Assembly: GCA_032622095.1 (NCBI GenBank)
Contig: CP136062.1
Span: 199,523,887 to 199,587,886 of the forward strand
Direction of reading: 5' to 3'
Length of the DNA stretch: 64,000 nt
Source: Siphonodentalium dalli
Taxonomy: Eukaryota; Mollusca; Scaphopoda; Gadilida; Siphonodentaliidae
Shown: one piece after another, positions 1 through 59,281 of the stretch
Layout of the letters: every line of letters begins with the position of its first letter
How positions within the stretch are numbered: the first letter of the stretch is position 1
Position numbers and translations under genes: made by a program
Notes under the pieces: model-generated
Told to the model about the DNA's origin: nothing
What the model saw: the letters and a program-made list of their open reading frames with translations, nothing else
Databases searched by the model: none

Positions 1-1160
1 AAGTACTATTACACAGCTATGTTGTGACCTTTAATTGGTCTGAACACCCACCGGAGTTGACGGTCGGGTACACGAAACTACACATACTACATGTGTATCA
101 CCTCCTTGGCTGTGTTTGGATGTGTCACAGAATGGCCAAGAACAAGAGAATTGCAAGAATAAAGCAACACATCAAATAGGTTCATATTGGACTTAAATAT
201 TAACATAGGTTCACATTGGACTTATTGCATTTTGAAATAAGTTCATAGTGCACTTACATCCGTTATATGGAGCGGGCCACAATGAAAACACATTATACAG
301 AGTGTACATCCGATAAGTCGATTTAGGTTCATATAGAGCGTAATTCAGATTCGAGTAATGCCTATATGTGCTTATTTGTGTGTTTGAAATAAGTTCAATA
401 TGAGCTTAATGTTTAGGAGAATATGCTGAATAAAGACATTTGTTCGCGGTGTTCTGACCAAAGCTATAACTGAACATACGAATTTCTCATAATCAAAACG
501 TGTTCAAACTGTCTCGGTGCACACCGTGGCTCAGCAGTGGATCGTTCATGTCTAATTTCATATAGCTATGCACTCAAAGTACCAAACATTAATGCTGAGA
601 AACAACTTTCATATCCCAATTGCTGGAGATATATATCCCGATTTGACTATGTTTATGCATATTTCTATACATTCTTAAAACCATGTATTTGGTAGAATAA
701 TTAAAATGAATCTGAATCTGAATCTGAACCGTTGTCAGCACTCAGACGGGCATATATGGCTAGAAACGTGAGCAGAAAGTTTAAACACCGGTGTCATCGG
801 CCATCGACAGCTCGAAGAAAAATGTTTAAGTTTGAAAGACGAAAAACATTATGTGGGGTTGATGCTTCCGGTTGGTGAGAGACGACATGTGTTGTCATCC
901 ACCCGATATAATGCACAGATAAGGCCCTCGCCATATTCATAAATTATGAATATCTTGTCAATGCCAAATCAGTTTTTAGAAATCACTTTACCTATTTCGA
1001 TACGAATTCTTGCTAAGTAGACAAACCATAATTTCTTAACGAAATAACCACAGGCATGGTACAATGTGCTTATACTTGAATGCTGTTCGGTGCCATATCC
1101 ACTTGTCGGTAGTTATACGTCCCGTTCTCGGTGTGCATTTTTCTACGCGGCCGAATTTCA
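1..1160. other. AT-rich noncoding with one dispersed repeat
   Basis: No convincing coding sequence. Bases about 174-320 form a dispersed repeat built from variants of 'ggttcatattggacttaa' and 'gggccacaatgaaaa'. It recurs in inverted orientation at about 30595-30760. The rest is simple AT-rich sequence in which I see no gene. Confidence 0.55.
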
Positions 1161-1260
1161 AAACAAAATGGAGCGTATTGATAACACTCTGACTGAATAT
1201 ATATTCTGCTTCGTGGCGAGGAAATATAATATAATTACTGAAATACGCTCCATTTTGTTT
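1161..1260. repeat. Short hairpin repeat (19-bp perfect inverted arms)
   Basis: Bases 1161-1179 (aaacaaaatggagcgtatt) are perfectly reverse-complementary to 1242-1260, with a 62-bp spacer. This is compatible with a small MITE remnant. No target-site duplication is clear, so the element class is not assigned. Confidence 0.65.
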
Positions 1261-1757
1261 GTGCGTGAATTCCTATACGCTGACCTGTCCTGCCCAGTTA
1301 ATATATGATTGTATGATCAGTTTGACCTATATTTATTCCCCGATATCCACTGCATGGGTGCGAGCTGGGTGGGCCCCTTCGGTTGCAGCTCGAGTGCCAA
1401 TTTCTTCAATTGATACCATATACAAGTACTCATTGTAGTGCACGATTTTTGGGGAGGGGGTAGCAAATGAAATCTCACGCGATCGGCATGTACGTAGGAA
1501 ATGTTCACCATACAAACTCTACGCCGCCGATCGCCCGGGTGGGTTGGTGGGTGTTTATCGGGGTCGCGGTGCTGCGGTGGCTGGTTGGGCGAAATCTTTA
1601 TATAATTTTTTTTTATCTGAACACAGCGGGCAGGCGGGTCAGTGGAGCAATGTAGCACTATATACCACTGGTTGTGGTAATTTAAGTGAATACACAATTA
1701 AAATTCGGCAGCGAATAGAAAAATGCACACCGAGCTCGGGACGTATTATATATACTA

Positions 1758-2561
1758 CTAGAAGGTGGACCCGACTTCGTCCGGGCTGTTTCCCCTCTGC
1801 TTTTCGGCGAATTGCGCGATTTGACCTTGAATTGTCCATTTTTAAGGTCAAGGTGAGGTGGGGTCACGATTTGACCCGTCCAAAACACTGCCCGGACAAA
1901 AGTACCCGACAAAAGTACCCGTCGAAATCCATCCTGTTTTACCCGATTTTGTCCACTGAGTGTTTTCGACGGGTCAAATCGTGACCCGACCTGACCTTGA
2001 CCTTCAAAATGATCAATTCGAGGTCAAATCTGGTAAAACCGGATGGATTTCGACGGGTACTTTTGTCCGGGCAAAGTCAGGTCGGGGTCGTCGAAATCCC
2101 ATCAAAATTCGCGATTTGACCTTGAATTGACCCGATTTCAAGGTCAAGGTCACGTCGCACGGGCAAATGAATAGGCTTATGAGACTCTCCATACGAAAGT
2201 ATCCCTAGACACTAATTTTCATCGAAATCCCGTGATATTCGGTCGTTTGACCTTGAAGTGACCCGATTTCAAGGTCAATGTCACGTCGCACGGGCAAATT
2301 AATAGGCCTGTGCCACTCCCCGGCCGAAATTATCCCACATACCAAGTTTCATCGAAATCCCGCGATATTCGGGCGTTTGACCTTGAACTAACCAGATTTC
2401 AAGGTCAAGGTCACGTCGCACGAACAAATTAATATGTCTATGCCAGTTCCCGGCCGAAAGTACCCCCAAATACCAAGTTTCATCGAAATCGGGTCGGCCG
2501 TTTTTTAGTTCATCGCGATCACACAGACACACACACAGATCTTCCAAAAATATATAATAGA
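1758..2561 (-). mobile_element. Helitron unit 1 (core type A, 804 bp)
   Basis: Minus-strand 3' end CTAG is at 1758-1761 with its hairpin at about 1770-1788; the 5' TC end is at 2560-2561. It contains four to five degenerate core monomers of about 110-125 bp, each with 'ttgaccttgaa...gatttcaaggtcaaggtcacgt' wording. An AC/ACAG microsatellite (about 2519-2540) and the AT-rich 5' tip follow. Open frames through it are artefacts of the repeats. Confidence 0.8.
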
Positions 2562-3192
2562 CTAGCATTTGGACCCGACTTCGTCCGGGCTGTTTCCCCT
2601 CTGCTTGTCGGCGAATTGCGCGAATTGACCTTGAATTGTCCATTTTGAAGGTCAAGGTCAGGTGGGGTCACGATTTGACCCGTCCAAAACACTGCCCGGA
2701 CAAAAGTACCCGTCGAAATCCATCCGGTTTTACCAGATTTGACCTCGAATTGATCATTTTGAAGGTCAAGGTCAGGTCGGGTCACGATTTGACCCGTCGA
2801 AAACACTCAGTGGACAAAAGTAACCATATGTATAAAATTTCGTCGAAATCCCATCAAAATTCGCAATTTGTCCTTGAATTGACCCGATTTCAAGGTCACG
2901 TCGCACGGGCAAACGAAGAGGCTTACGACACTCCCCATACGAAAGTATCCCTAGACACTAATTTTCATCGAAATCCCGTGATACTCGGGCTTTCTACCTC
3001 GAAATGACCCGATTTCAAGGTCAAGTTCATGTCGCACGGGCAAATTAATAGCCCCATGCCACTCCCCGGCCGAAAGTACCCCCACATACCAAGTTTCATC
3101 AAAATCGGTTCAGCCGTTTTGGAGTCCACCGCGAACAGACAGACAGACACACACACACCCTGACAGACAGATTTCCCAAAATATATAATAGA
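2562..3192 (-). mobile_element. Helitron unit 2 (core type A, 631 bp)
   Basis: It begins with CTAG at 2562 (minus-strand 3' end) followed by the ACCCGAC...GTCCGGGC hairpin. It ends with 'atatataataga' at 3192 next to an ACAG/ACAC microsatellite at about 3136-3170. It is a close relative of units 1 and 3 with fewer core monomers. Confidence 0.8.
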
Positions 3193-3821
3193 CTAGCAGG
3201 TGGACCCGATTTCGTCCGGGCTGTTTCCCCTCTGCTTTTCGGCGAATTGCGCGATTTTACCTTGAATTGTCCATTTTGAAGGTCAAGGTCAGGTGGGGTA
3301 ACGATTTGACCCGTCCAAAACACTGCCCGGACAAAAGTACCCGACAAAAGTACCCGTCGAAATACATCCGGTTTTACCCAATTTGACCTTGAATTGATCA
3401 TTTTGAAGGTCAAGGTCAGGTCGGGGTCACGATTCGACCCGTCCAATACACTCAGTGGACAAAAGTAACCCTATGTATCAAATTTCGTCGAAATCCCATC
3501 AAAATTTTCGATTTGACCTTGAATTGACCCGATTTCAAGGTCAATGTCACGTCGCACGGGCAAACGAATATGCTTACGACACTCCCCATATGGAAGTATT
3601 CCTAGACACTAACTTTCATCGAAATCCCGTGATACTCGGGCGTTTGACCTTGAAATGACCCGATTTCAAGGTCACGTCGCACGGGCAAATTAATAGGCCC
3701 ATGCCACTCCCCGGCCGAAAGTACCCCCACATACCAAGTCTCATCGAAATCGGCACGGCCGTTTTCGAGTCCATCGCGAACACACACACACACACACAGA
3801 TTTCCCAAAATATATAATAGA
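3193..3821 (-). mobile_element. Helitron unit 3 (core type A, 629 bp)
   Basis: Same structure as unit 2 and nearly the same length. The microsatellite is a pure AC run (about 3780-3799). The right tip 'tatataataga' abuts the CTAG of unit 4 directly, which is where core type A changes to type B. Confidence 0.8.
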
Positions 3822-4246
3822 CTAGCTGATGTGCCCGACTTGGTCCGGGCTATTCAAAAACCAAATTTCAAGTCGATAGCTCTACCCAGCCCGACGATGT
3901 CCGGGCTATGCAAAAACCAAATTTCTCTACCCGTTTCCGAGATCTGATCTGTGCATGCGCGAAGCTGTCGTCGCACGGGATCGGCGACCCGATAAAATTC
4001 GTATCCGGGGCAATATACATTCACATAGCAAATTTCAAGTCGATAGCTCCACCCGTTTCCAAGATCTCGTCTGCGCATGCGCGAAGCGGGCGCCGCACTG
4101 GATCGCCAATACGACGTTGACGACCGCCTGGTGAAACTACACACACGTACCAAGTTTCGTCCCGATCGGTCGAGAATCGTAGAGTTGTATACATGACATA
4201 CATACATACATACAGACAGACAGAGGTCTTCAAAATATATAGGAGA
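3822..4246 (-). mobile_element. Helitron unit 4 (core type B, 425 bp)
   Basis: CTAG is at 3822. The terminal hairpin segment (gcccgac...gtccgggc plus about 40 bp) occurs twice, starting near 3833 and 3889. Two 122-bp core monomers follow, each containing 'gcatgcgcgaagc', then a CATA/CAGA microsatellite at about 4195-4223. It ends in 'aggaga' at 4246. Confidence 0.8.
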
Positions 4247-4682
4247 CTAGCCGATGAGCCCGACGTTGTCCGGGCTATTCAAAAACCAAATTTCACGTCG
4301 ATAGCTCTACCCAGCCCGACGTTGTCCGGGCTATTCATAAACCAAATTTCAAGTCGATATCTCTACCCGTTTCCGAGATCTGGTCTGCGCATGCGCGAAG
4401 CTTGCGTCGCACGGGCTCGGTGACCCGATAAAATTCATATCCGGGGCAAGATACATTCACATACCACATTTCAAGTCGATAGCTCCACCCGTTTCCGAGA
4501 TCTCGTCTGTGCATGCGCGAAGCGGGCGCCGCACTGGCTCGCCAATACGACGTTGACGACCGCCTGGAGAAACTACACACACGTACCAAGTTTCGTCCCG
4601 ATCGGTCGAGAATCGTAGAGTTGTATACATGACATACATACATACATACAGACAGACAGAGGTCTTCAAAATATATAGGAGA
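4247..4682 (-). mobile_element. Helitron unit 5 (core type B, 436 bp)
   Basis: Same build as unit 4: duplicated 3' hairpin segment, two core monomers, CATA/CAGA microsatellite and an 'aggaga' tip. Units 4 and 5 are similar enough over their right halves to suggest recent amplification. Confidence 0.8.
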
Positions 4683-5363
4683 CTAGCCGATGAGCCCGAC
4701 GTTGTCCGGGCTATTCAAAAACCAAATTTCAAGTCGATAGCTCTACCCAGCCCGACGTTGTCCGGCTATTCATAAACCAAATTTCAAGTCGATAGCTCTA
4801 CCCGTTTCCGAGATCTGGTCTGCGCATGCGCGAAGCTGGCATCGCATGGGCTCGGCGACCAGATAAAATTCGTATCCGGGGCAAGATACATTCACATACC
4901 AAATTTCAAGTAGATAGCTCCACCCGTTTCCGAGATCTGGTCTGCGCATGCGCGAAGCTTGCGTCGCACGGGCTCGGTGACCCGATAAAATTCATATCCG
5001 GGGCAAGATACATTCACATACCACATTTCAAATCGATAGCTCCACCCGTTTCCGATATATCGTCTGCCCATGCGCGAAGCTGGCGTCGCACGGGCTCGGC
5101 GACCCGATAAAATTCGTATCCGGGGCAATATACATTCACATAGCAAATTTCAAGTCGATAGCTCCACCCGTTTCCGATATCTCGTCTGCGCATGCGCGAA
5201 GCGGGCGCCGCACGGGCTCGCCAATACGACAACGTCGACCGCCTGGTCAAACTACACACACGTACCAAGTTTCGTCCCGATCGAGAATCGTAGATTTGTA
5301 TAAATGACAGACAGCCAGACAGACATACAAACATACAGAGGTCTTCAAAATATATATATGAGA
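4683..5363 (-). mobile_element. Helitron unit 6 (core type B, 681 bp)
   Basis: Begins CTAGCCGATGA at 4683 and ends 'tatgaga' at 5363, followed by the host T at 5364. It holds the duplicated hairpin segment and four 122-bp cores, and is the longest type-B unit. Frames running through the cores give repetitive peptides containing 'MREAGVARARRPDKIRIRG', which are not proteins. Confidence 0.8.
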
Positions 5364-6561
5364 TATAGAACAGGTTGTGGCACCGAATCGCCTTCTAGTT
5401 AATACAGAGTGTGACTATATGTGATAAGTTGGTGGCTTCATATATGCTCAAATACCACAATATGTGATAATATGAGGAAAAAAATTGTCTGGGGAAACCG
5501 TTAGATTTCATACTATAATATATCATTGATGGTATCAGCGGGATCTTAGTCTATCGCAATCTATAGAGTGCAATAAATTGTTCACAGCAGAATGTCGGTG
5601 AGCAATATATTAAATAAGCCTATGAGTGACTTAAGCCAAACAATGTTCTCACTAAACAAACGTAGCTCTTTAATACCTTTTAGATCGGCAATATATTAAG
5701 ATGCCGCGGTGTTTACGTTGCTCTTGGGACCGTAGCCTCGTGTATATCTAACTTTCTATTTGATCGCATCTGTCAAATTTTCGAATACTTTTATGAACGG
5801 AAGTTTCGCGTTCAAATTTATTATCTAATTAAATGTAATATCCTTATTTCGGCCAATTTGGCCGGTTACTTCATGTGACTTTTTCATCTGACGTGTGTGT
5901 CGGATAATTGATCTGGAGGATTTATGTAAATGTTAGCCCAAACTACATTTCCAAGTAACGATGGTTTTGTTGTCTATTTTGAGGAATAATACCGCGTCAG
6001 ATGAATTCAGCCCAAATATGTTAACAGTTGTCGTGTCAAACATTCGGCAGTAGGTTAGCGTTATTTAGTATTTGTGGATGTCCTTTAACATGGGGAAAAT
6101 AGACTACTGCGCTTGAACGAGCATGTAAATTTGTCGTTTTTAATGTACAGCAACTTGATAATCAATAACAGAGGCATTCTCTGTCAAATAAGGTCGCTCT
6201 ATTTACGGTATTAATTGCGGAACTTTCTAAAGTAAACTACGCGTAACCGGATACATACGGTAGATTATAGAATGTGCCGGAATCGGCCTAATCGCCCCAT
6301 GGCCAACTCGCCCAGTCGACGTGTGTCAATTCGGTACCTACTATAACATGTACCCGAGTCCGATTCGGAATAAAAGATGTATACGGGTGTTATATAGCGT
6401 TTGGTCCGTTGTTTCTCAATGAATATTATTGAAATTTGGTGTATATGTCCGGGCTGGGACATGGAATACAACAACGTTTGAATTGTTTTTAAATTTACAA
6501 ATTTGTTGATTTTATTCAATTTTTTTTCGTTCTGAAAACACACTATAAAGTGTATATAATA
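5364..6561. other. Noncoding, with one dispersed repeat
   Basis: Bases 5582-5705 (cacagcagaatgtcggtgag...) recur at 12637-12773 with about 10-15% differences and a small insertion in the second copy. Nothing coding is seen in the remainder. Confidence 0.55.
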
Positions 6562-6861
6562 TAATAACGAACACGAGACATACATAATTTATAAACTGTT
6601 AACAAAAGATATCAAATTCAATACATGACAAAGATGACTCAGTGGAGTTTATAAAGTGAACATAAAAACATTGAGGTAAGAATCTTTTTAAGGAATGCAA
6701 CTTTATTTAATGATAATAAACACATAAATTAAAATAACAAACATGAGACATACATGATTTATAAACTGTTAACAAAAGATATCAAACTCAATACATGACA
6801 AAGATGACTCAGTGAAGTTTATAAAGTGAACATAAAAATATTAAGGTAAGAATCTTTTTAA
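6562..6861 (+). repeat. Local direct duplication (about 130 bp, two copies)
   Basis: 6562-6691 and 6732-6861 match closely ('gagacatacat', 'aacaaaagatatcaaa', 'ggtaagaatctttttaa') with a 170-bp period. The 40-bp spacer differs. It is a simple tandem duplication with no coding signal. Confidence 0.8.
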
Positions 6862-8306
6862 GCATTACTAAACCGTTTAGCACAGACCACAGTCCACTTC
6901 ACTCATCCGATCATCACCAAACTTCATATTTATCTTGATATTGATCTATCAGATGAGAGCTATCAAATATATTTTTAATTTCATAGGAAAAAATGGTCGC
7001 CAGCGGCCATATTGCATTTACGTTATATTTTATCGCGTCATGTCGATATCTAGTATTACTTAGAAATTTCACCTTTCCAGATTCATAATTGCTCCATTGA
7101 CTGTAACAGATGAAATTATTCCCCTCTTCGGATAGAGTGTCACTGAAACTTTATTTTGTCAGACTGTCTGTATAATCACTGATTATATATGGCAATAATC
7201 TGTAATAAGATGTAGCACTATTTTATTTTATATTTACATGCAGTGCTGTTTTTATACATCAATTCTAATCCCCCTAGATAATCATGTGATCGATCATACA
7301 TCGCGCGAGGACCTGGTTGAATTAAGGGGGGTTTTATGGATCACTTCTGTCCTCAAGCTAGATTATACTTATGACATTTAATGGCATGTTGCTAACGTGG
7401 AGGGTTAGATATGCTTGAGAAACCACCACTCTTTAATTCACACCAAGTTCTCAGCTGTCATGTTCGGATATTAGAACCCATAGCCATGATATATGGTTTA
7501 TTTTGTGTATACTAGTAATATAGTTATTTTCAGTACCTTTATATACCAGTACTGTGTATAACAATGCATATAAATTAATCCATGTATACATGTATATTGA
7601 TTCAACGGATTCAGTGGTTTTGTCCATCAGTCTATCAAATTTGCGGAGAAAACATGGCCACAAGCAGTACACCCTGCTAAATTTCGAATTTGAATCAATT
7701 GGCGCACCCTGCAGCCAGCTTTTATTGGAGAACTTTTTCTTATGTGGATATTTTGGGTCACCGCTAGATGTGAGCCATATTTTGTTCTCAAACTGTCCTT
7801 GTGAAGACATCACTGCCAGCGGTGATCTTCAATTTTACTATTTTTATGGCTAAATAATTTGGTTGATCCTACAGACGACACCCTTGTCCGATCGTCATCA
7901 GATTCCACAATTATCTTCTGGATAACCAGGGTGAGAGTAATCTAATTTTCCCGAATTTCGTTAAAAAACATTACCACAGGCAGCAATTTGGTATCTTACT
8001 CTTTGATCCTCTTTTGCATGACTGAATTGTTTAGCAACTGTACAGACATATCCCTCATCTGGTTTTTATATACATGTATATCTCTTCATGCGGATAGCCA
8101 GTATTACGTAGGTACTTCAACTTTCTGCATTCCTGTCATCATTTGAAATATAAAAATTTACCTGATACATGCACCCTTCAAAATTTGTTTCGTCGTATCT
8201 ATTTTAATGACCCGTATGGTAATATTGATACAGATATATTTGTCAAACATTTCTTTGTACAATATACAGGTATTTAGTTTGTAACTAAATCTAGAAATAT
8301 ATAATA
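6862..8306. other. Noncoding; degenerate 'ggccatcttgg' family repeats
   Basis: Parts of 6885-7030 and 7440-7900 contain 'tccgatcatcaccaaacttcatat' and 'gccagcggccat' wording also found at 47.8-49.7 kb. They are decayed members of that dispersed family. No gene is recognised. Confidence 0.4.
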
Positions 8307-8808
8307 GTAGCTCGTGGACCCCACTTCGTCCGGGATGTTCCCCTCTGATTTTCGGAGAAATGCGCGATTTAACCTTGAATTGACTATTTTAAAGGTGAAG
8401 GTCATGTCGGGGTCACGATTTGACCCGTCCAGAACACTCCCCGGACAAACGTCACGACAAAAGTACCCGTCGAAATCCGCCCGGCTTTATACCCGATTTG
8501 ACCTTGAATTGACAATTTTGAATGTCAAGATCAGGTCAGGGTCATGATTTGACCCACCCGAAACACTCCTGGGACAAAAGTAACAGTAGGTATCAAATTT
8601 CGTTGAAATACTTCCGTTTTACCAGATTTGACCTTGAATTGATCTTTTTGAATGTCAAAGTCAGGTCGGGATCAAGATTTGACCCGTCCAAAATACTCCC
8701 TGGAAATAATTTCCCCTAGGTATCAAATTTCGTCAAATCTGTCCGGCAGTTTTCCCGGCCATAGCTAACAGACAAACAGACAGACAAATGTCCAAAATAT
8801 ATATTAAA
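8307..8808 (-). mobile_element. Helitron unit, core type A, degraded ends
   Basis: It starts with a damaged CTAG tip ('gtagctcgtggacccc') and the hairpin 'ccacttcgtccggg', then type-A cores and an ACAG/ACAA microsatellite (about 8768-8786). It ends 'atattaaa' at 8808, so the minus-strand 5' end reads TT rather than TC. It joins the next unit at 8809 without spacer. More diverged than the first array. Confidence 0.65.
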
Positions 8809-9191
8809 CTAGCTGATGTACTCGACTTCGTTCGGGCTAGTTAGGGATTTTTTTTGTGATCGCCTCCATCTGGACAGTACCCAGTATATACAGCGTCTGG
8901 CCAAACTATTGTTCAATTGGTCCAGAAACATGCCTATATCAGCACGTTCGAGAACATGGTCCCACGTGAAATTGGACCCGTCCATATTGCTCCCGGGATC
9001 GAAGTAGTCCTACACACAAATTTTTAGTCGGATCGGTCAAGGTCCAGAAACATGCCTATGAGCGAGGTCAAGTTGACACGTTAAATACCAAATTCGAGCA
9101 GTGTTAGAGTCTATAACACATACACACATGCATTCACGCATACACACATACATACATACATACAGACAGGTGTTTCAAAATGTATAATCGA
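8809..9191 (-). mobile_element. Helitron unit, third core type (383 bp)
   Basis: CTAGCTGATG is at 8809, with hairpin 'ctcgac-ttc-gttcggg'. A different internal sequence contains two copies of 'ggtccagaaacatgcctat'. A CATA/CACA microsatellite lies at about 9117-9166, and the tip 'aatcga' ends at 9191 followed by T (9192). On the minus strand it starts TCGATTATAC, so TC, CTAG and the 3'-flanking T are all preserved. Confidence 0.7.
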
Positions 9192-10318: not shown

Positions 10319-12093
10319 GTACGTGTCCAACGATATTTGCCCCGTGTTTTCGTCGGGGGAATGCATGTATATGTGCCGTAGAACGGAATAATTAAGACAC
10401 CACTAGAGTGTGTTAGCGATTTACCAAGACAGCCCTGTACCAAGATGTACACCATGTACACGATTTTTTGTCCCTGGAAACCGATTTTTGAAGTACGGAT
10501 CATGTTTTTTTAAAGGGTTGCAAAAAATGACAAGTATATATATATATACGCTCTTTCTCGAGTACGCATTCGCTATCGTGGTCCCCGATAGATTCACGCT
10601 GCGAATTCATCGCAGCATTATACATGTCGCGATTACCACACCGGTTCATGAATAGGTAGATAGATATTTTTATTTTTGGTGCGATGCAAAAATAAAAATA
10701 TACAAACGGTCCTACAAATTAATTGGACCATGTAGTGTTACATTATGTTTGTATACAGCATTTGATAACAGAAAAATCTAAATGGTGTCGTTCATTAATA
10801 TGAATGTTCATTTCAATTAAATTGATAGAGCAAATTTTAATTTGATGAAATATGTAGATGTTTTAGAGAAGTGGTGTTTATATATAATAAGATTCATCCA
10901 TCGCACCGAGGATAGCATTGAAAAGTCTGTCCCATAAATGGGCTGACTTGTTTCAACAATGGTCCTCGGGTTAATAGACGTTATCAAGATTTTATAGAAT
11001 GTCTAAATTTACAAAGGACCAAAGGAAAATATTGATTAATACTCAAACTTCAGAAGAATATATTTACATGCATGGTTATTTATACTATAGGAAATAGTTG
11101 TATATTCGCTCTCTTTTGTTACAATATATTAATCTACGGAGAATACAATAATAATCCAGTACTTGTATACTACGATAAGAGCTCTTGCTACTCAATTAAT
11201 CCATAAGTTTCAATATGTAGCTTCGATGCTGCAAGAGTGACTGAAAATTTGCCATTACCATCAACATTGAAATAATAATAACTATGCGCCACCTCAATTC
11301 AATTCAATTCAGTTTATTCTGGAGCCAATACTAGACCTTACAGATGTGTATAAGTAAATACAATATATATGGTCGTTACATGTATAAATGTATGTGTATG
11401 ACATAAAATAGAAATGGGGTGGTCGACATTCGTTTACACTGTATCAGATCGACAGGCTGGTGGTACTAAGCCTCAGGGGGAACTAAATATCTCAAGGACC
11501 TTCTTAATAAATACTGACGGGAGTTAATTATAGAGGCTGATTTATAAGTGTTTGGTATCTGGTAGAGTACGTCCTACAGATAAAAAAGATCTCCCTGAAG
11601 GATTTATATCAATTCAATAGAGGTAAAATATAATAATTCTAAGCCGGTAACGTCCTTGTTTTCACGGCTACAATTTACGCTTCACTGAAGATTCTATTGG
11701 TAAATGTTACTCGGGAAGAGAGTCACATAATTATATAGTAGGCTATGGACAAAAGAGTGAAGCCAGACGCAATAAATAGATTTTACACCTAAAAATAAAC
11801 TGGATTTTCATCATCTTTTTATCTTCTACCATATAACCGCTGTCGTGAAAATTTTGCAAACAAGAATACATTTTTATATGACTGTCTAATTTTGTCATTG
11901 TCATCATAAACATTAATACATATAGTATAACATGTGTATATCCATATAGTTTCCAATAATTATGTTAAAACAAAAACAAAAAAACGATAAAGTCTTCTGT
12001 CTCAACAATGAAGATTAAGAGTAGCTTTAAGGCCTGTGTGCTGTTGTCTGTACTGATACTACAGACACATTACTGTATGGATACAAAATTACG
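10319..12093. other. Noncoding; small hairpin and simple repeats
   Basis: 10666-10700 is a short hairpin (atttttatttttg ... caaaaataaaaat). 11300-11326 has a CAATT-repeat followed by 'cagtttattctgg', a common tail of dispersed repeats. I see no coding exons here. Confidence 0.45.
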
Positions 12094-16382: not shown

Positions 16383-16774
16383 CCCTTTACCCAACAGAAC
16401 GGCCCTGTGCCAATGCATTCTCTTATATATGCGAGTCGACCATAGGTCGCCTCGCATATATAAGAGAATGCATTGGCTTAACACATTAAAAATTATAAAA
16501 TTGTTAAAGAATGTAAGAAAAAATGGTAAAAAGTGTTTAAAAAAGATTTGTTTTAGGCCAATGCATTCTCTTATATATGCGAGGCGACCTATGGTCGACT
16601 CGCATATATAAGAGAATGCATTGGCACAGGGCATAACTGTAACTATCACAATGTGGTCAATGAGCCGGTTCCAATGATATCCATATGTGTATGGTTCTAT
16701 TGAGACAGACCCAAGATATTTTAGGTTGTTGAAGCTTTATCTGGCAGGTTTTGGCCGGTTTGTTGGGTAAAGGG
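16383..16774 (-). mobile_element. TTAA-flanked piggyBac-like nonautonomous element (392 bp), copy 1
   Basis: Flanked by TTAA at 16379-16382 and 16775-16778. Termini are CCCTTTACCCAACA...TGTTGGGTAAAGGG. TTAA duplication with CCC...GGG tips is the signature of the piggyBac superfamily. Inside lie two long hairpins (about 16405-16475 and 16558-16628), reverse complements of each other, each with a stem of about 35 bp ending gcgag...ctcgc. Orientation is opposite to the copies at 30.8 and 42.3 kb. No transposase ORF. Confidence 0.85.
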
Positions 16775-25536: not shown

Positions 25537-26010
25537 CCCTTTCAGTGCCAGGTCCGATTTTTGTATCAACCCATATACCCTGTGCCAATGCATTCTCTTA
25601 TATATGCGAGTCAACCATAGGTCGCCTCGCATATATACGAGAATGCATTGGCCTAACAATTTTTCATCATTTGTTATTATTTTTAACAATTTTTTCAATT
25701 TTAATAATTTTTTCATATATTCTTTAACAGACTTATTTTGTAGGTTTAGTGCCAGGGAATCTTACGTTTTTCATGGGCATCATAATTATTACTATGAATA
25801 CTTGGTGATAGTTTTGAGTTATAACATGCCCCTAAGGTTTTATCCAGTTTGTTTTTAAATTCGCTATATCATGCTTAAGCATACCCAAACAAAATTCAAC
25901 CCGAAAAAATCTAAAAACAAAACAAAAACAATTTGTTTTTTATTTTTTTAGGGCCGATTTTACAGACCGTAAATTAGGGCCGATCTCATCGGCCCCTGGA
26001 ACTGAAAGTG
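25537..26010 (+). mobile_element. TTAA-flanked piggyBac-like element, second family (474 bp)
   Basis: TTAA at 25533-25536 and 26011-26014. Tips are CCCTTTCAGTGCCAGG and its imperfect complement (...cctggaactgaaagtg). It contains only one long hairpin (25577-25652), nearly identical to the hairpins of the 392-bp family, although its tips and remaining interior differ. The interior is A/T-rich with no ORF. Confidence 0.75.
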
Positions 26011-29953: not shown

Positions 29954-30090
29954 CCCTGTGCCAATGCGTTCTCTTATATATGCGATTCGCCCATAGGGCG
30001 CCTCACATATATAAGAGAATGCATTATCTTATGGTATAATATATGCGTGTATGGGAGACTCGCATAAATAAGAAAATGCACTGGCACAGG
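29954..30090. mobile_element. Free-standing copy of the long-hairpin module (137 bp)
   Basis: CCTGTGCCAATGCG... at the left and ...GCACTGGCACAGG at the right form inverted ends. The left hairpin is complete (29957-30034) and the right half-collapsed. It lacks the TTAACCC tips of the 392-bp elements, so the hairpin module can exist alone with its own CCTGTGCC termini. Confidence 0.65.
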
Positions 30091-30827: not shown

Positions 30828-31218
30828 CCCTTTACCCAACAAACGGACAAAAACGCCCAAATAAAAAAAAAATGTGATGGTTACAGTTATGCCCTGTGCC
30901 AATGCATTCTCTTATATATGCGAGTCGACCATAGCCTATGGTCCATAGGTCGCCTCGCATATATAAGAGAATGCATTGGCCTAAAAAAATCATTTTTTAA
31001 CACTTTTTACCAGTTTTTCTTACATTCTTTAACAATTTTATAATTTTTTCTTACATTTTTTAACAATTTTTATAATATTTTTCTACATTTTTTGACAATT
31101 TTATCATTTTTAATATGTGTTAAGCCAATGCATTCTCTTATATATGCGAGGCGACCTATGGTCGACTCGCATATATACGAGAATGCATTGGCACAGGGCC
31201 GCTCTGTTGGGTAAAGGG
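30828..31218 (+). mobile_element. TTAA-flanked piggyBac-like element, 392-bp family, copy 2 (391 bp)
   Basis: TTAA at 30824-30827 and 31219-31222; tips CCCTTTACCCAACA/TGTTGGGTAAAGGG. Two hairpins lie near each end (about 30898-30980, 31125-31195). The first has an extra 9 bp (atagcctatggtccat) at its loop. The right tip has cgctctg where copy 3 has cccttctg. Confidence 0.85.
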
Positions 31219-39452: not shown

Positions 39453-39925
39453 CAGCTACCCTCATTGACCGTGTATATACGAACGCTATATACACCAGCT
39501 ACCCTCATTGACCATGTATATACGAACGCTATATACACCAGCTACCCCCATTGACCATGTATATACGAACGCTATATACACCAGCTACCCTCATTGACCA
39601 TGTATATACGAACGCTATATACACCAGCTACCCTCATTGACCATGTATATACGAACACTATATACACCAGCTACCCTCATTGACCATGTATATACGAACG
39701 CTATATACACCAGCTACCCTCATTGACCATGTATATACGAACACTATATACACCAGCTACCCTCATTGACCATGTATATACGAACGCTATATACACCAGC
39801 TACCCCATTGACCATGTATATACGAACACTATATACACCAGCTACCCTCATTTACCATGTATACACGAACGCTATATACACCAGCTACCCTCATTGACCA
39901 TGTATATACGAACGCTATATACACC
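39453..39925 (+). repeat. Minisatellite: 43-bp unit x 11
   Basis: Eleven nearly identical copies of a 43-bp unit (ctaccctcattgaccatgta ...). Each contains a small palindrome gtatata-cgaacgc-tatatac. Variation is mainly cgaacg/cgaaca and one missing base near 39803. Because 43 is not a multiple of three, each frame reads through repetitive peptides; these are not genes. Confidence 0.95.
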
Positions 39926-42331: not shown

Positions 42332-42723
42332 CCCTTTACCCAACAAACCGGCCAAAACCGGCCAAATAAAGCTTCAACAGCCTAAAATATCTTCGGTCTG
42401 TCTCAATAGAACCATACAAATATGGATATCATTGAAACCGGCTCCTTGACCACATTGTGATAGTTACAGTTATGCCCTGTGCCAATGCATTCTCTTATAT
42501 ATGCGAGTCGACCATAGGTCGCCTCGCATATATAAGAGAATGCATTGGCCTAAAAAAAATCTTTTTTTAACACTTTTTACCATTTTTTCTTACATTCTTT
42601 AACAATTTTATAATTTTTAATGTGTTGAGCCAATGCATTCTCTTATATATGCGAGGCGACCTATGGTCGACTCGCATATATAAGAGAATGCATTGGCACA
42701 GGGCCCTTCTGTTGGGTAAAGGG
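42332..42723 (+). mobile_element. TTAA-flanked piggyBac-like element, 392-bp family, copy 3
   Basis: TTAA at 42328-42331 and 42724-42727. Tips and both hairpins (about 42478-42550, 42630-42702) are intact. Left subterminal 'aaaccggccaaaaccggcc' is a short duplication. Same orientation as copy 2. Confidence 0.87.
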
Positions 42724-55296: not shown

Positions 55297-56266
55297 ATAG
55301 GAATCACTGAACTAAATGGTTTCCCATAGGCGACAGTGTTAACGTTTCGGCCAAATTCACTGAATTGAAGCCTGCAGGCCATACCAGTGATGTTTACCCA
55401 GCTAGATTGACACCAGTTGATCACGAAAATGCAAGAAAAATCATAGGTCATGCGTTTACTTTTTAAAATAAATCCCCAAGTCTACGACAGGGCTACGGTC
55501 TACCTCACAGCCAAATTTGATCTGGAAAAACACAAGACTACAGCAGCTAGTTAAATAAATTTCCCGCTCACAAAAATCCATTCCCCCATTCATTCACCAG
55601 TTTAAATTATTTAGATATTATGTACAAATCAAATAAACGCGATGTTATCCTTTAATAACATGTCGCATGTATCAGGTGAAGGTCATCTTCAGTTACCTTC
55701 ACCTATAGCGGTGTACTCGCTCCCCGACTCTAGAACACATTTAGCTCCCTGATTCCTATAGATATGTATATGTGTGAAACACAGCGTTTCAAATCTTATA
55801 GTATTTTTTTCAAATTATAGACCTTACTGAAATCAAAAATGGATTATATCGAGCAGTAGTGGTTTATTTTTCCAATATGAGGCATCCTGAAATTTAATGT
55901 CAATCCTCAAAATAAAGCCAAAAAATTTAGATTTTTTTTTTCAATTTTACTAGCTGATGCATCTCGTATAACTGAAGTATGCCCTTATATACCATAATAT
56001 TACTAAATTGAAGAGGAAATGTTAATATACATTTTGAGAGGGATATCTTCTCCATTTTAAACACTTTTCATGCAGAATTTGGCAATTTATAATAAACATT
56101 TACCAAAATTAACAGAAAATTAAAATAAAAAATACTTTAATAGCAATATAAAGCAACCATAAGTCAATTTAAATATCTAAACATAATGATACAACATCAG
56201 ACACAGCCTCAGACATGAAATTTTACCAGATGGCAGGGCATACTGTCTGTTTAACAAACCTGCCAT
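55297..56266 (+). repeat. Tandem segmental duplication, copy A (empty site for the Helitrons)
   Basis: 970 bp from 'ataggaatcactgaac' to 'aacaaacctgccat', repeated at 56658-58685. Copy A retains the uninterrupted sequence gtata|tgtgtgaaac at 55766-55780, exactly where copy B carries 1073 bp of Helitron. No coding capacity recognised. Confidence 0.9.
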
Positions 56267-56657
56267 GGCAATTTTGCACGACAGTAACTCTAGTGGTGGT
56301 GCGGCCATCACCCCCCCCCCCCGACTTGGGGTGGGGCTACGGTCCCCGTTAAGACTACTGGGTGCCGGAAAAGCTTAATTGGGTCAACTGTCACCTTTTC
56401 CCAATTGGGGGGGGGGCTAACACTCCTCAACATTGTGGGGAGAGGGCTTTAGACCCCCTGACCCCATAATGGTGCCTGATGTCCAATGGTGCAAAATTCC
56501 CAGATTTATCACTTTCTTTACTATCTACAGGCGAATCCATGGGTTTCTACTTTAAATATGTCCAAAATGTGGTCATTATCATTTGAAAATAAGAAAATAT
56601 GGAATTAACAACTTATCATGGCGAGACGTGAATTTTCGTAAAATTCAAATTTTCCTT
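56267..56657. other. Spacer between duplication copies
   Basis: 391 bp of C- and G-run-rich sequence with no gene. 56465-56480 (cataatggtgcctgatg) recurs at 58684-58699, the right breakpoint of copy B. Confidence 0.6.
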
Positions 56658-57120
56658 ATAGGAATCACTGAACTAAATGGTTTCCCATAGGCGACAGTGT
56701 TAACGTTTCGGCCAAATTCACTGAACTGAAGCCTGCAGGCCATACCAGTGATGTTTACCCAGCTAGATTGACACCAGTTGATCACGAAAATGCAAGAAAA
56801 ATCATAGGTCATGTGTTAACTTTTTAAAATAAATCCCCAAGTCTACGACAGGGCTATATCACAGCCAAATTTGATCTGGAAAAACCCAAAACTTCAGCTA
56901 GTTAAAATTTCCCGCTCACAAAAATCCATTCCCCCATTCATTCACCAGTTTAAATTATTTAGATATTATGTACAAATCAAATAAACGCGATGTCATCCTT
57001 TAATAACGTGTATCAGGTGCAGGTCATTCTTCAGTTACCTTCACCTTTAGCCATTCCACGGTGTACTCGCTCCCCGACTCTAGAACACATTTAGCTCCCT
57101 GATTCCTATATATATGTATA

Positions 57121-57569
57121 CTAGCCGACGAGCCCGACGTTGTCCGAGCTATTCAAAAAACAAATTTCAAGTCGATAGCTCCCGACGTTGTCCGGGCTAT
57201 TCAAAAACCAAATTTCAAGTCGATAGCTCTACCCAGCCCGACGTTGTCCGGGCTATTCAAAAACCAAATTTCAAGTCGATAGCTCTACCCGTTTCCGAGA
57301 TCTGGTCTGCGCATGCGCGAAGCTGGCGTCGCACGGGCTCGGCGACCCGATAAAATTCGTATCCGGGGCAAGATACATTCACATAACGAATTTCAAGTCG
57401 ATAGCTCCACCCGTTTCCGAGATCTCGTCAGCGCATGCGCGAAGCGGGCGCCGCACGGGCTCGCCAATACGACAACGTTCACCGCCTGGTCAAACTACAC
57501 ACACGTACCAAGTTTCGTCCCGATCGGTCGAGAATCGTAGATTTGTATAAATGACATACAGACAGACAT

Positions 57570-57602
<33 letters not shown>

Positions 57603-57624
57603 GGTCTTCAAAATATATATGAGA
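57121..57624 (-). mobile_element. Helitron unit (core type B) with triplicated hairpin segment
   Basis: The gcccgac...gtccgggc hairpin segment occurs three times (from about 57131, 57181 and 57237), the first with a mutated stem (gtccgagc). Two cores and a CAGA microsatellite (57557-57602) follow. Confidence 0.85.
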
Positions 57625-58193
57625 CTAGCCGATGAGCCCGACGTTGTCCGGGCTATTCAAAAACCAAATTTCAAGTCGATAGCTCTACCCAGCCCGACGT
57701 TGTCCGGCTATTCAAAAACCAAATTTCAAGTCGATAGCTCTACCCGTTTCCGATATCTGGTCTGCGCATGCGCGAAGCTGGCGTCGCACAGGCTCGGCGA
57801 CCCGATAAAATTCGTATTCGGGGCAAGATACATTCACATACCAAATTTCAAGTAGATAGCTCCACCCGTTTCCGATATCTCGTCTGCGCATGCGCGAAGC
57901 TGGCGTCGCACGGGCTCGGCGACACGATAAAATTCGTATCCGGGGCAAGATACATTCACATACCAAATTTCAAGTCGATAGCTCCACCCGTTTCCGAGAT
58001 CTCGTCTGCGCATGCGCGAAGTGGGCGCCGCACGGGCTCGCCAATACGACAACGTCCACCGCCTGGTCAAACTACACACACCTACCAAGTTTCGTCCCGA
58101 TCGGTCGAGAATCGTAGATTTGTATAAATGACATACATACAGACATACAGACAGACAGACAGACAAACAGAGGTCTTCAAAATATATATGAGA
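57625..58193 (-). mobile_element. Helitron unit (core type B, 569 bp)
   Basis: CTAG at 57625, two hairpin segments, three 122-bp cores ('gcatgcgcgaag' at 57766, 57888, 58010), a CAGA microsatellite (58134-58171), and tip tatgaga at 58193. Confidence 0.88.
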
Positions 58194-58689
58194 TGTGTGA
58201 AACACAGCGTTTCTTATAGTATTTTATCAAAATATAGACCTTACTGAAATCAAAAATGGATTATATCGAGCAGTAGTGGTTTATTTTTCCAATATGAGGC
58301 ATCCTGAAAATTAATGTCAATCCTCAAAATAAAGCCAAAAAAAACGGATTTTTGTTCTTCAATTTTACTAGCTGATGCATCTCGTATAACTGAAGTATGC
58401 CCTTATATACCATAATATTACTAAATTGAAGAGGAAATGTTAATATACATTTTTAGAGGGATATCTTGTCCAATGTTAAACACTCTTCATGCAGAATTTG
58501 GCAATTTATAATAAACATTTACCAAAATTAACAGAAAATTAAAATAAAAAATACTTTAATAGCAATATAAAGCAACCATAAGTCATGTTAAATATCTAAA
58601 CATAATGATACAACATCAGACACAGCCTCAGACATGAAATTTTACCAGATGGCAGGGCATACTGTCTGTTTAACAAACCTGCCATAATG

Positions 58690-59000
58690 GTGCCTGATGC
58701 GCACTATTTGTCGCTTTCGGCGCACTTTTTGTCGCTTTCGGCGCTTTCGGCGCTTTCGGCGCGCGCGCCGAAAGCGACAAAAAGTGCGATATTAGCGCAT
58801 GTTTCGGCGCGTTACTAATGGCGCACTTTTTGTCGCTTTCGGCGCGCGCCGAAAGCGCCATTAGGCATACTATTAGGTCCACTCCCTAATGGCGCGCGCC
58901 GTAAGCGACAAAAAGTGCGCCATTAGGGTATGTTTCTGCGCGCGCCGAAAGCGCCGAAAGCGACAAAAAGTGCGCCGAAAGCGCCATTAGCAAGTGGCCC
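58690..59000. repeat. GC-rich nested palindrome cluster (ctttcggcgc units)
   Basis: About 300 bp almost wholly built from cgctttcggcgc, its complement gcgccgaaagcg, 'actttttgtcg' and 'taatggcgc'. Several self-contained inverted units can be seen. One is 58886-58928 (cctaatggcgc...gcgccattagg) and another about 58815-58866. It lies exactly at the right breakpoint of duplication copy B and is a strong base-composition outlier. No protein: Ala/Pro/Lys-rich frames are by-products. Confidence 0.8.
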
Positions 59001-59017
59001 TAATAGGATTCCATATA

Positions 59018-59281
59018 TATCACAGCCAAATTTGATCTGGAAAAACCCAAGACTACAGCAGCTAATTAAATAAATTTCCCGCTCACAAAAATCCATTCCC
59101 CCATTCATTCACCAGTTTAAATTATTTAGATATTATGTACAAATCAAATAAACGCGATGTCATCCTTTAATAACATGTCGCATGTATCAGGTGCAGGTCA
59201 TTCTTCAGTTACCTTCACCTTTAGCATTCCACGGTGTACTCGCTCCCCGACTCTAGAACACATTTAGCTCCCTGATTCCTA
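59018..59281 (+). repeat. Tandem segmental duplication, partial copy C
   Basis: 264 bp from 'tatcacagccaaatttgatc' to 'ccctgattccta' match copies A and B. It stops at the same TA-rich point into which the Helitrons inserted in copy B. Confidence 0.85.

Follow-up and report, generated by a model that had tools for sequence, protein, structure and literature searches.

Tandem Helitrons have reportedly been described in Myotis and in plant centromeres, by Pritham and Feschotte and by Xiong et al. Whether such tandems arise from concatemers or by repeated insertion is a known question (PMC2267711, PMC5148889, PMC5876387), argued since at least 2008 (PMC2267711), and the head-to-tail stacks of Myotis, plant centromeres and Metarhizium are, in the accessible text of the source, either read as rolling-circle products or left undecided (PMC5148889). 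The adjacent maize Helitrons of Du et al. 2008 form a CTAG|TC junction between unlike Helitrons, for which insertion at an AT composed of the host A and the resident's T is one of two options given (PMC2267711). Helraiser/Helibat elements have TC...CTAG ends, a 3' hairpin, an A|T target without duplication and a RepHel protein (PMC4778049, PMC5876387); the Helraiser transposase cleaves single-stranded DNA where the flank meets TC, circles with an exact head-to-tail CTAG-TC junction form and are active donors, and the AT-rich preference is strongest on the 3' flank, with an AT-rich stretch near the cleavage site (PMC4778049). Helitron-related elements with core repeats and a microsatellite are also already published, as DINE-1/HINE (PMC4067079) and oyster Cg_HINE (PMC7492417). 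Here we consider a 1,073-bp insert at positions 57121-58193 of a 64,000-nucleotide stretch of the scaphopod Siphonodentalium dalli (assembly GCA_032622095.1, contig CP136062.1, positions 199,523,887 to 199,587,886; hereafter the window), which we read, with a probability of roughly 0.7, as a head-to-tail pair of non-autonomous family Y Helitrons moved by a Rep/PIF1 Helitron, the stacks to which such pairs belong being formed by targeting of the 5' end of a resident element.

The insert lies in one of two copies, A and B, of a local duplication (Table 1). Their alignment contains a single unbroken gap of 1,073 bp with both sides aligned, so that the initial annotation was right in assigning to copy B a segment not present in copy A; outside it the copies differ by 31 substitutions at 948 aligned sites and by 11 gap events. 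The empty site in copy A reads GTATA|TGTGTG at 55770|55771, and the insert, TCTC...CTAG on the minus strand, is sited between A and T with no target duplication at this pair of copies, again as first described. Its boundaries had been called fixed to the base, which is one base too strong, since the junction can slide by 1 nt, the T of the target and the T of the element's TC being indistinguishable. Such a slide is inherent to any A|TC...CTRR|T element, that is, to Helitrons.

The insert had been taken for a single element with a hairpin 11 nt before CTAG, and both points require correction. It consists of two units with zero bases between them, the plus-strand junction reading GAGA|CTAG at 57624|57625. 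Both units start 5' with TCTCATATATATTTTG, both carry a tetranucleotide microsatellite together with 122-bp core repeats, and their 55-56-bp repeats contain copies of the terminal hairpin. The 3' end is of the type ...AGCCCGGACAACGTCGGGCTCATCGGCTAG, with two changes in unit a; with up to 3 mismatches allowed, the 30-nt 3' end is matched 4 times in the window and never in 100 shuffles. The 20-nt hairpin ends 10 nt from the 3' end and thus 6 nt before CTAG; it is present in the predicted DNA fold of the unit b end (-6.4 kcal/mol, z -1.78), and the unit a end, the one that the initial annotation had described, is predicted to adopt another structure after a C-to-T change (-3.4 kcal/mol, z 0.01). 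The two units differ at 10 of 320 sites, and in the comparison of neighbours, where they stand at 3.3%, they are typical; nine of these ten substitutions can be assigned to a or to b alone, the tenth being ambiguous, and a 1-nt deletion common to b and U6, a further unit of the window, is missing in a, which speaks against identity of the pair.

A search of the genome for elements with the same ends and for a Rep/helicase partner, as had been proposed, yielded both. A PF14214 profile search gave 457 candidates, of which 150 were scored; there are at least 151 matches in the genome, many in long open frames, and none of 14 control genomes was matched. Locus L048 (C2:141,790,500-141,799,700) contains at 465-9035 an 8,571-bp element with a Y-type 5' end, the first 433 nt being 94% like unit b (whose 5' 429 nt align with it at 94%), and at its 3' end 33 nt match those of unit b at 97%. 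Its 1,650-codon Rep/PIF1-helicase frame encodes Helitron_like_N, PIF1 and Pif1_2B domains, a weak Rep match and N-terminal STPR repeats (79 bits). The same domains occur in the frames of L043 and L046, where STPR scores 24 bits (below the cut-off) and 43 bits respectively; both frames end in a family X 3' end, with an X unit immediately behind it. In these three frames, out of at least 151 PF14214 matches, no Pfam domain, endonuclease included, was found beyond Rep, helicase and STPR at E 0.001. The N-terminal STPR repeats (PF21107) distinguish the partner from the Helraiser/Helibat proteins; they occur in the RepHel frames L048:2829-7775, L043:3361-8163 (minus strand) and L046:2875-7824. With TC/CTRR ends, an A|T target without duplication, a 3' palindrome, thousands of copies and a RepHel partner with the same ends, the units are firmly identified as canonical Helitrons, as the initial annotation had proposed. 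The autonomous form is itself stacked. Across L050, L048 and L049 (G000:C2:141788500-141808700) two autonomous Helitrons of 8,571 and 8,576 bp, both with open 1,650-codon frames, stand in exact tandem, in the order Y|Y|autonomous|autonomous|TATTATATATAA, where both Y units measure 518 bp and show 5 differences.

Stacking is not peculiar to the insert. Two more stacks occur in the window, of six units (1758-5363) and of two (about 8309-9190), and its junctions comprise six exact head-to-tail CTAG|TC and one decayed CTAG|TT. In the assembly of 2.23 Gb (nine contigs) the exact 24-mer 3' end has 16,633 copies, and the exact 18-mer 3' end is directly followed by the 5' start TCTNNTATATATTTTG at 10,455 sites, the reversed controls giving 0 in both cases; because the two stems differ in length, the ratio is not a strict fraction. 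A set of loci found with the dimer as query (59 matches at 30 loci, less L001, which is the window itself, and L019 and L022, which are L017 and L021 in reverse) gives, together with the window, 80 3' ends, of which 64 lead directly into an element 5' start and 16 into host sequence. This set is biased towards dimers by its query, and the whole-genome pattern counts are less so. Among the first 100 listed exact 3' ends, all on contig 1, 62 run into an exact element start; the remaining 38 comprise 18 variant or mutated 5' starts, 18 with TATATA or ATATAT within 12 nt, one other host sequence and one internal element sequence. Another element is thus directly adjoined by 80 of the 100, or by 61 of 81 without a dense cluster (G000:C1:13714967-13786366) in which 19 family Y 3' ends lie on one strand within about 71 kb, each directly followed by another element's start. 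In the places covered, a stack is therefore where a family Y 3' end most often lies. In the available text on Helraiser, by contrast, re-insertions occur without clustering near donor sites (PMC4778049), and maize offers, in the part of the source at hand, one case (PMC2267711) against over ten thousand junctions here, with evidence of orientation and target.

These junctions have a marked polarity. The head-to-head form exists at 2 sites in the genome (four matches, each counted on both strands) against 10,455 head-to-tail, and neighbours closer than 1.2 kb among the 100 listed ends form 29 pairs on the same strand and none on opposite strands (21 and none when the cluster is left out), whereas random insertion at a resident A|TC would give both orientations, because A|T is a palindrome. 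Neighbours are also mixed in kind, 100 Y junctions listed from the 10,455 leading into 41 Y-type, 48 X-type and 11 other starts. The median difference is 4.2% for 22 adjacent Y pairs (52 of 60 Y units having a usable segment) and 5.1% for 1,281 pairs taken from separate places; between L020 and L027 the Y units differ by 0.3% near the junction, the X units behind them by 15.5%. Since neighbour types are mixed and adjacent pairs nearly as divergent as distant ones, most stacks look, from their sequences, like repeated insertion, and a minority like concatemers or duplication.

In the locus set, 14 of 15 host flanks after the 3' end contain TATATA or ATATAT in their first 12 nt (L024, where a 12-bp TA spacer and another element follow, being left out), and the first base is T in all 15. 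Before the 5' end the motif occurs in 3 of 23 flanks (9 of 32 rows with internal, out-of-phase, nested or repeated starts being left out), and the last host base is A in 21 of 23, one exception coming from a scan two bases out of phase. The baseline is 2.6% of the A|T sites of the window. Likewise, 18 of the 20 listed ends outside stacks are followed by TATATA-rich sequence; T is the first base in 17 of these 18 rows, L063 may itself be an element start that has been altered, and two pairs resemble duplicated sites (L051/L054 and L072/L073). Since the elements themselves start with TCTNNTATATATTTTG, the host target resembles the element's own start. The initial annotation had named genome copies with other ends or with target duplications as evidence that would count against it, and this was answered in part: the 100 listed copies show the element starts and TATATA-rich flanks given above, but as they were chosen by an exact 3' end they cannot test that end, and target duplication was examined at the window pair. 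A short stretch, TGGTTTAACCA, stands before a truncated X start in L026:1434-1510 and again before a Y start 56 bases on.

It is likely that the transposase accepts the 5' end of a resident element as its target. To start transposition the Rep nuclease would have to nick A|TC at the element's 5' end, and if, as we infer, it nicks the target by the same recognition, a resident 5' end would be a prime target. The incoming strand or circle would join upstream of the resident in the same orientation, giving ...CTAG|TC... stacks, and each insertion would recreate the target at a new 5' end, such that the newest copy would be 5'-most. If targeting works in this way, one expects one-way polarity, insertion at A|TC, stacks of mixed families and host targets that resemble the element's start, all of which are seen; the minority of near-identical neighbours may come from multi-round rolling circles or local duplication. 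A wider proposal, to which we give somewhat less than an even chance, is that the element's own 5' end is the preferred landing site, that A|T and TATATA constitute the shared signal, that the subfamilies, including the autonomous one, stack one way on this account, and that STPR may read the signal. The silkworm STPR protein FMBP-1 binds 5'-ATNTWTNTA-3' (PMC4821344), hence the suggestion that the N-terminal STPR of the partner may recognise TATATA; in the open-access literature searched, no paper joined 'Helitron' and 'STPR'.

Several observations weigh against this picture. The TATATA likeness alone fits, by extrapolation from the window rate, millions of host sites, and because it is too common to account for the 80%, more of the 5' end must be read. 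Adjacent Y pairs are slightly closer overall than others (one-sided p 0.029), and 4 of the 22 are less than 2% apart, as are 3% of the remaining pairs; this closeness suits concatemers or duplication better. The upstream neighbour of a unit is weakly correlated with its downstream one (Spearman 0.20 for Y and 0.25 for X), so that some blocks may move together. The expected order, with the 3'-most copy oldest, lacks significant support: it holds in 9 of 17 informative adjacent pairs (Wilcoxon p 0.33), and the 3' units of the window have more private changes (6:3, 10:7, 18:12), though not significantly. The 19 of 100 listed ends that fall into the one cluster suggest local amplification, and the autonomous tandem copies are near-identical, their first 7,797 bases, up to an indel, differing by 3 substitutions, which again suits concatemers or duplication better. 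The empty-site evidence comes from one site, at which the a-b divergence (10/320) equals that between copies A and B (31/948), making a one-step insertion of a like pair possible.

One-step insertion is what the foremost alternative would expect, namely that a rolling circle was copied more than once and the multimer inserted in a single event, as Pritham and Feschotte proposed for the tandem Helitrons of Myotis, according to the account in PMC2267711. We regard this as a serious though doubtful explanation of the stacks. The CTAG|TC junctions equal circle junctions, and Helraiser circles have exactly that junction (PMC4778049); near-identical neighbours do exist, in the autonomous pair and the Y-Y pair in J and in the L016 pair, two L011 units have a rare 5' variant in common, and the a-b divergence is as high as the age of the A-B duplication allows. 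Concatemers alone, however, cannot make mixed-family junctions, which are common, and adjacent Y pairs mostly diverge almost as much as pairs taken from separate places.

That single insertions were later multiplied by tandem duplication or unequal crossing-over is an unlikely account of the stacks in general, although a possible one for the near-identical neighbours. Local events of this sort have left traces: the core repeats of U5 and U6 (4366-4487 and 4923-5044) differ at 1 of 122 sites and the 5' segments at 17 of 225, so that local exchange inside a stack does occur; a RepHel Helitron is duplicated with its host flank in L043/L044 (G000:C6:36908500-36922299), the 99% identity covering 2.7 kb of flank and X unit as well as the Rep frame, in a region with three Rep hits 8-11 kb apart (36914596, 36925960, 36934407); and the dense cluster described above is of a kind that duplication could build. 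To generate the stacks as a whole, the break points would have to fall repeatedly and exactly at CTAG|TC, and neither the mixed families nor the lack of a monomer remnant in copy A fits such an origin.

That copy A lost the segment by precise deletion, copy B having gained nothing, is very improbable: a putative excision product, with contamination possible, has been reported from maize (PMC2267711, in the part of the text available), but the segment missing from copy A coincides with the element ends and leaves a clean A|T, which a chance deletion would not do. A third partial copy of the duplication (59020-59281) cannot decide between gain and loss, as it stops 12 bp before the insertion site. 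Least credible of all are Helentron/HINE elements of the DINE-1 kind, which, in the text available, share with the units a non-autonomous nature, central or core repeats, a tetranucleotide microsatellite (GACA/GTCT in the units) and ties to tandem repeats, but differ in having a TT target, subterminal inverted repeats and a Helentron partner (PMC7492417, PMC4067079), whereas the units here have an A|T target, TC and CTAG ends and, in 10 units, no subterminal inverted repeat above the shuffled level (longest exact match 5-9 nt).

Tandem Helitrons as such are known; what these stacks add is their scale, their polarity and the likeness of their targets, and mixed subfamilies are frequent here. 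Self-targeting by 5'-end likeness on such a scale was not seen in open-access titles and the starts of abstracts, most subscription papers lying outside that search. With its thousands of junctions, its mixed subfamilies, a partner whose ends match and a likely signal for the target, this genome makes the question of the origin of tandem Helitrons answerable, and the process would allow satellite-like arrays to be seeded by a dispersed transposon with no need of unequal crossing-over.

Table 1. Features of the window, with positions counted from its first letter
Feature	Position	Strand	Remark
U6, family Y	4683..5363	-	5'-most of the six-unit stack
U5, family Y	4247..4682	-	abuts U6 and U4
U4, family Y	3822..4246	-	abuts U3, a mixed-family junction
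U3, family X	3193..3821	-	
U2, family X	2562..3192	-	
U1, family X	1758..2561	-	3'-most, followed by host TAGTATATATAA
Unit of the two-unit stack	8809..9190	-	boundaries approximate
Unit of the two-unit stack	8309..8808	-	boundaries approximate
Copy A of the local duplication	55297..56270	+	empty site; BLASTN and MAFFT against copy B
Copy B of the local duplication	56658..58693	+	holds the insert 57121-58193; BLASTN and MAFFT
Unit a, non-autonomous Helitron, 504 bp	57121..57624	-	3' end of the dimer, abuts unit b
Unit a terminal hairpin	57131..57150	-	weakened by one change
Unit b, non-autonomous Helitron, 569 bp	57625..58193	-	5' end of the dimer; 5' TCTCATATATATTTTG, 3' GGCTAG
Unit b terminal hairpin	57635..57654	-	6-bp stem, 8-nt loop, 10 nt from the 3' end

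Other repeated sequences accompany these features. Copy A is followed by about 195 bp (56271-56465) containing long runs of C and G, which copy B lacks and which make a second length difference between the two, and palindromic GC-rich repeats (GGCGCACTTTTTGTCGCTTTCGGCG and its complement) occupy 58699-58990, between copy B and the third copy. Elsewhere in the window there are eight inverted pairs of the form TCTCTTATATATG...CATATATAAGAGA, in some of which one base is changed, 36-50 bp apart from start to start, whose start resembles the Helitron 5' end (16419-16467, 16567-16615, 25594-25642, 29970-30018, 30908-30970, 31134-31182, 42491-42539 and 42639-42687), as well as a 43-bp tandem repeat of 11 copies with 96% matches at 39453-39925.
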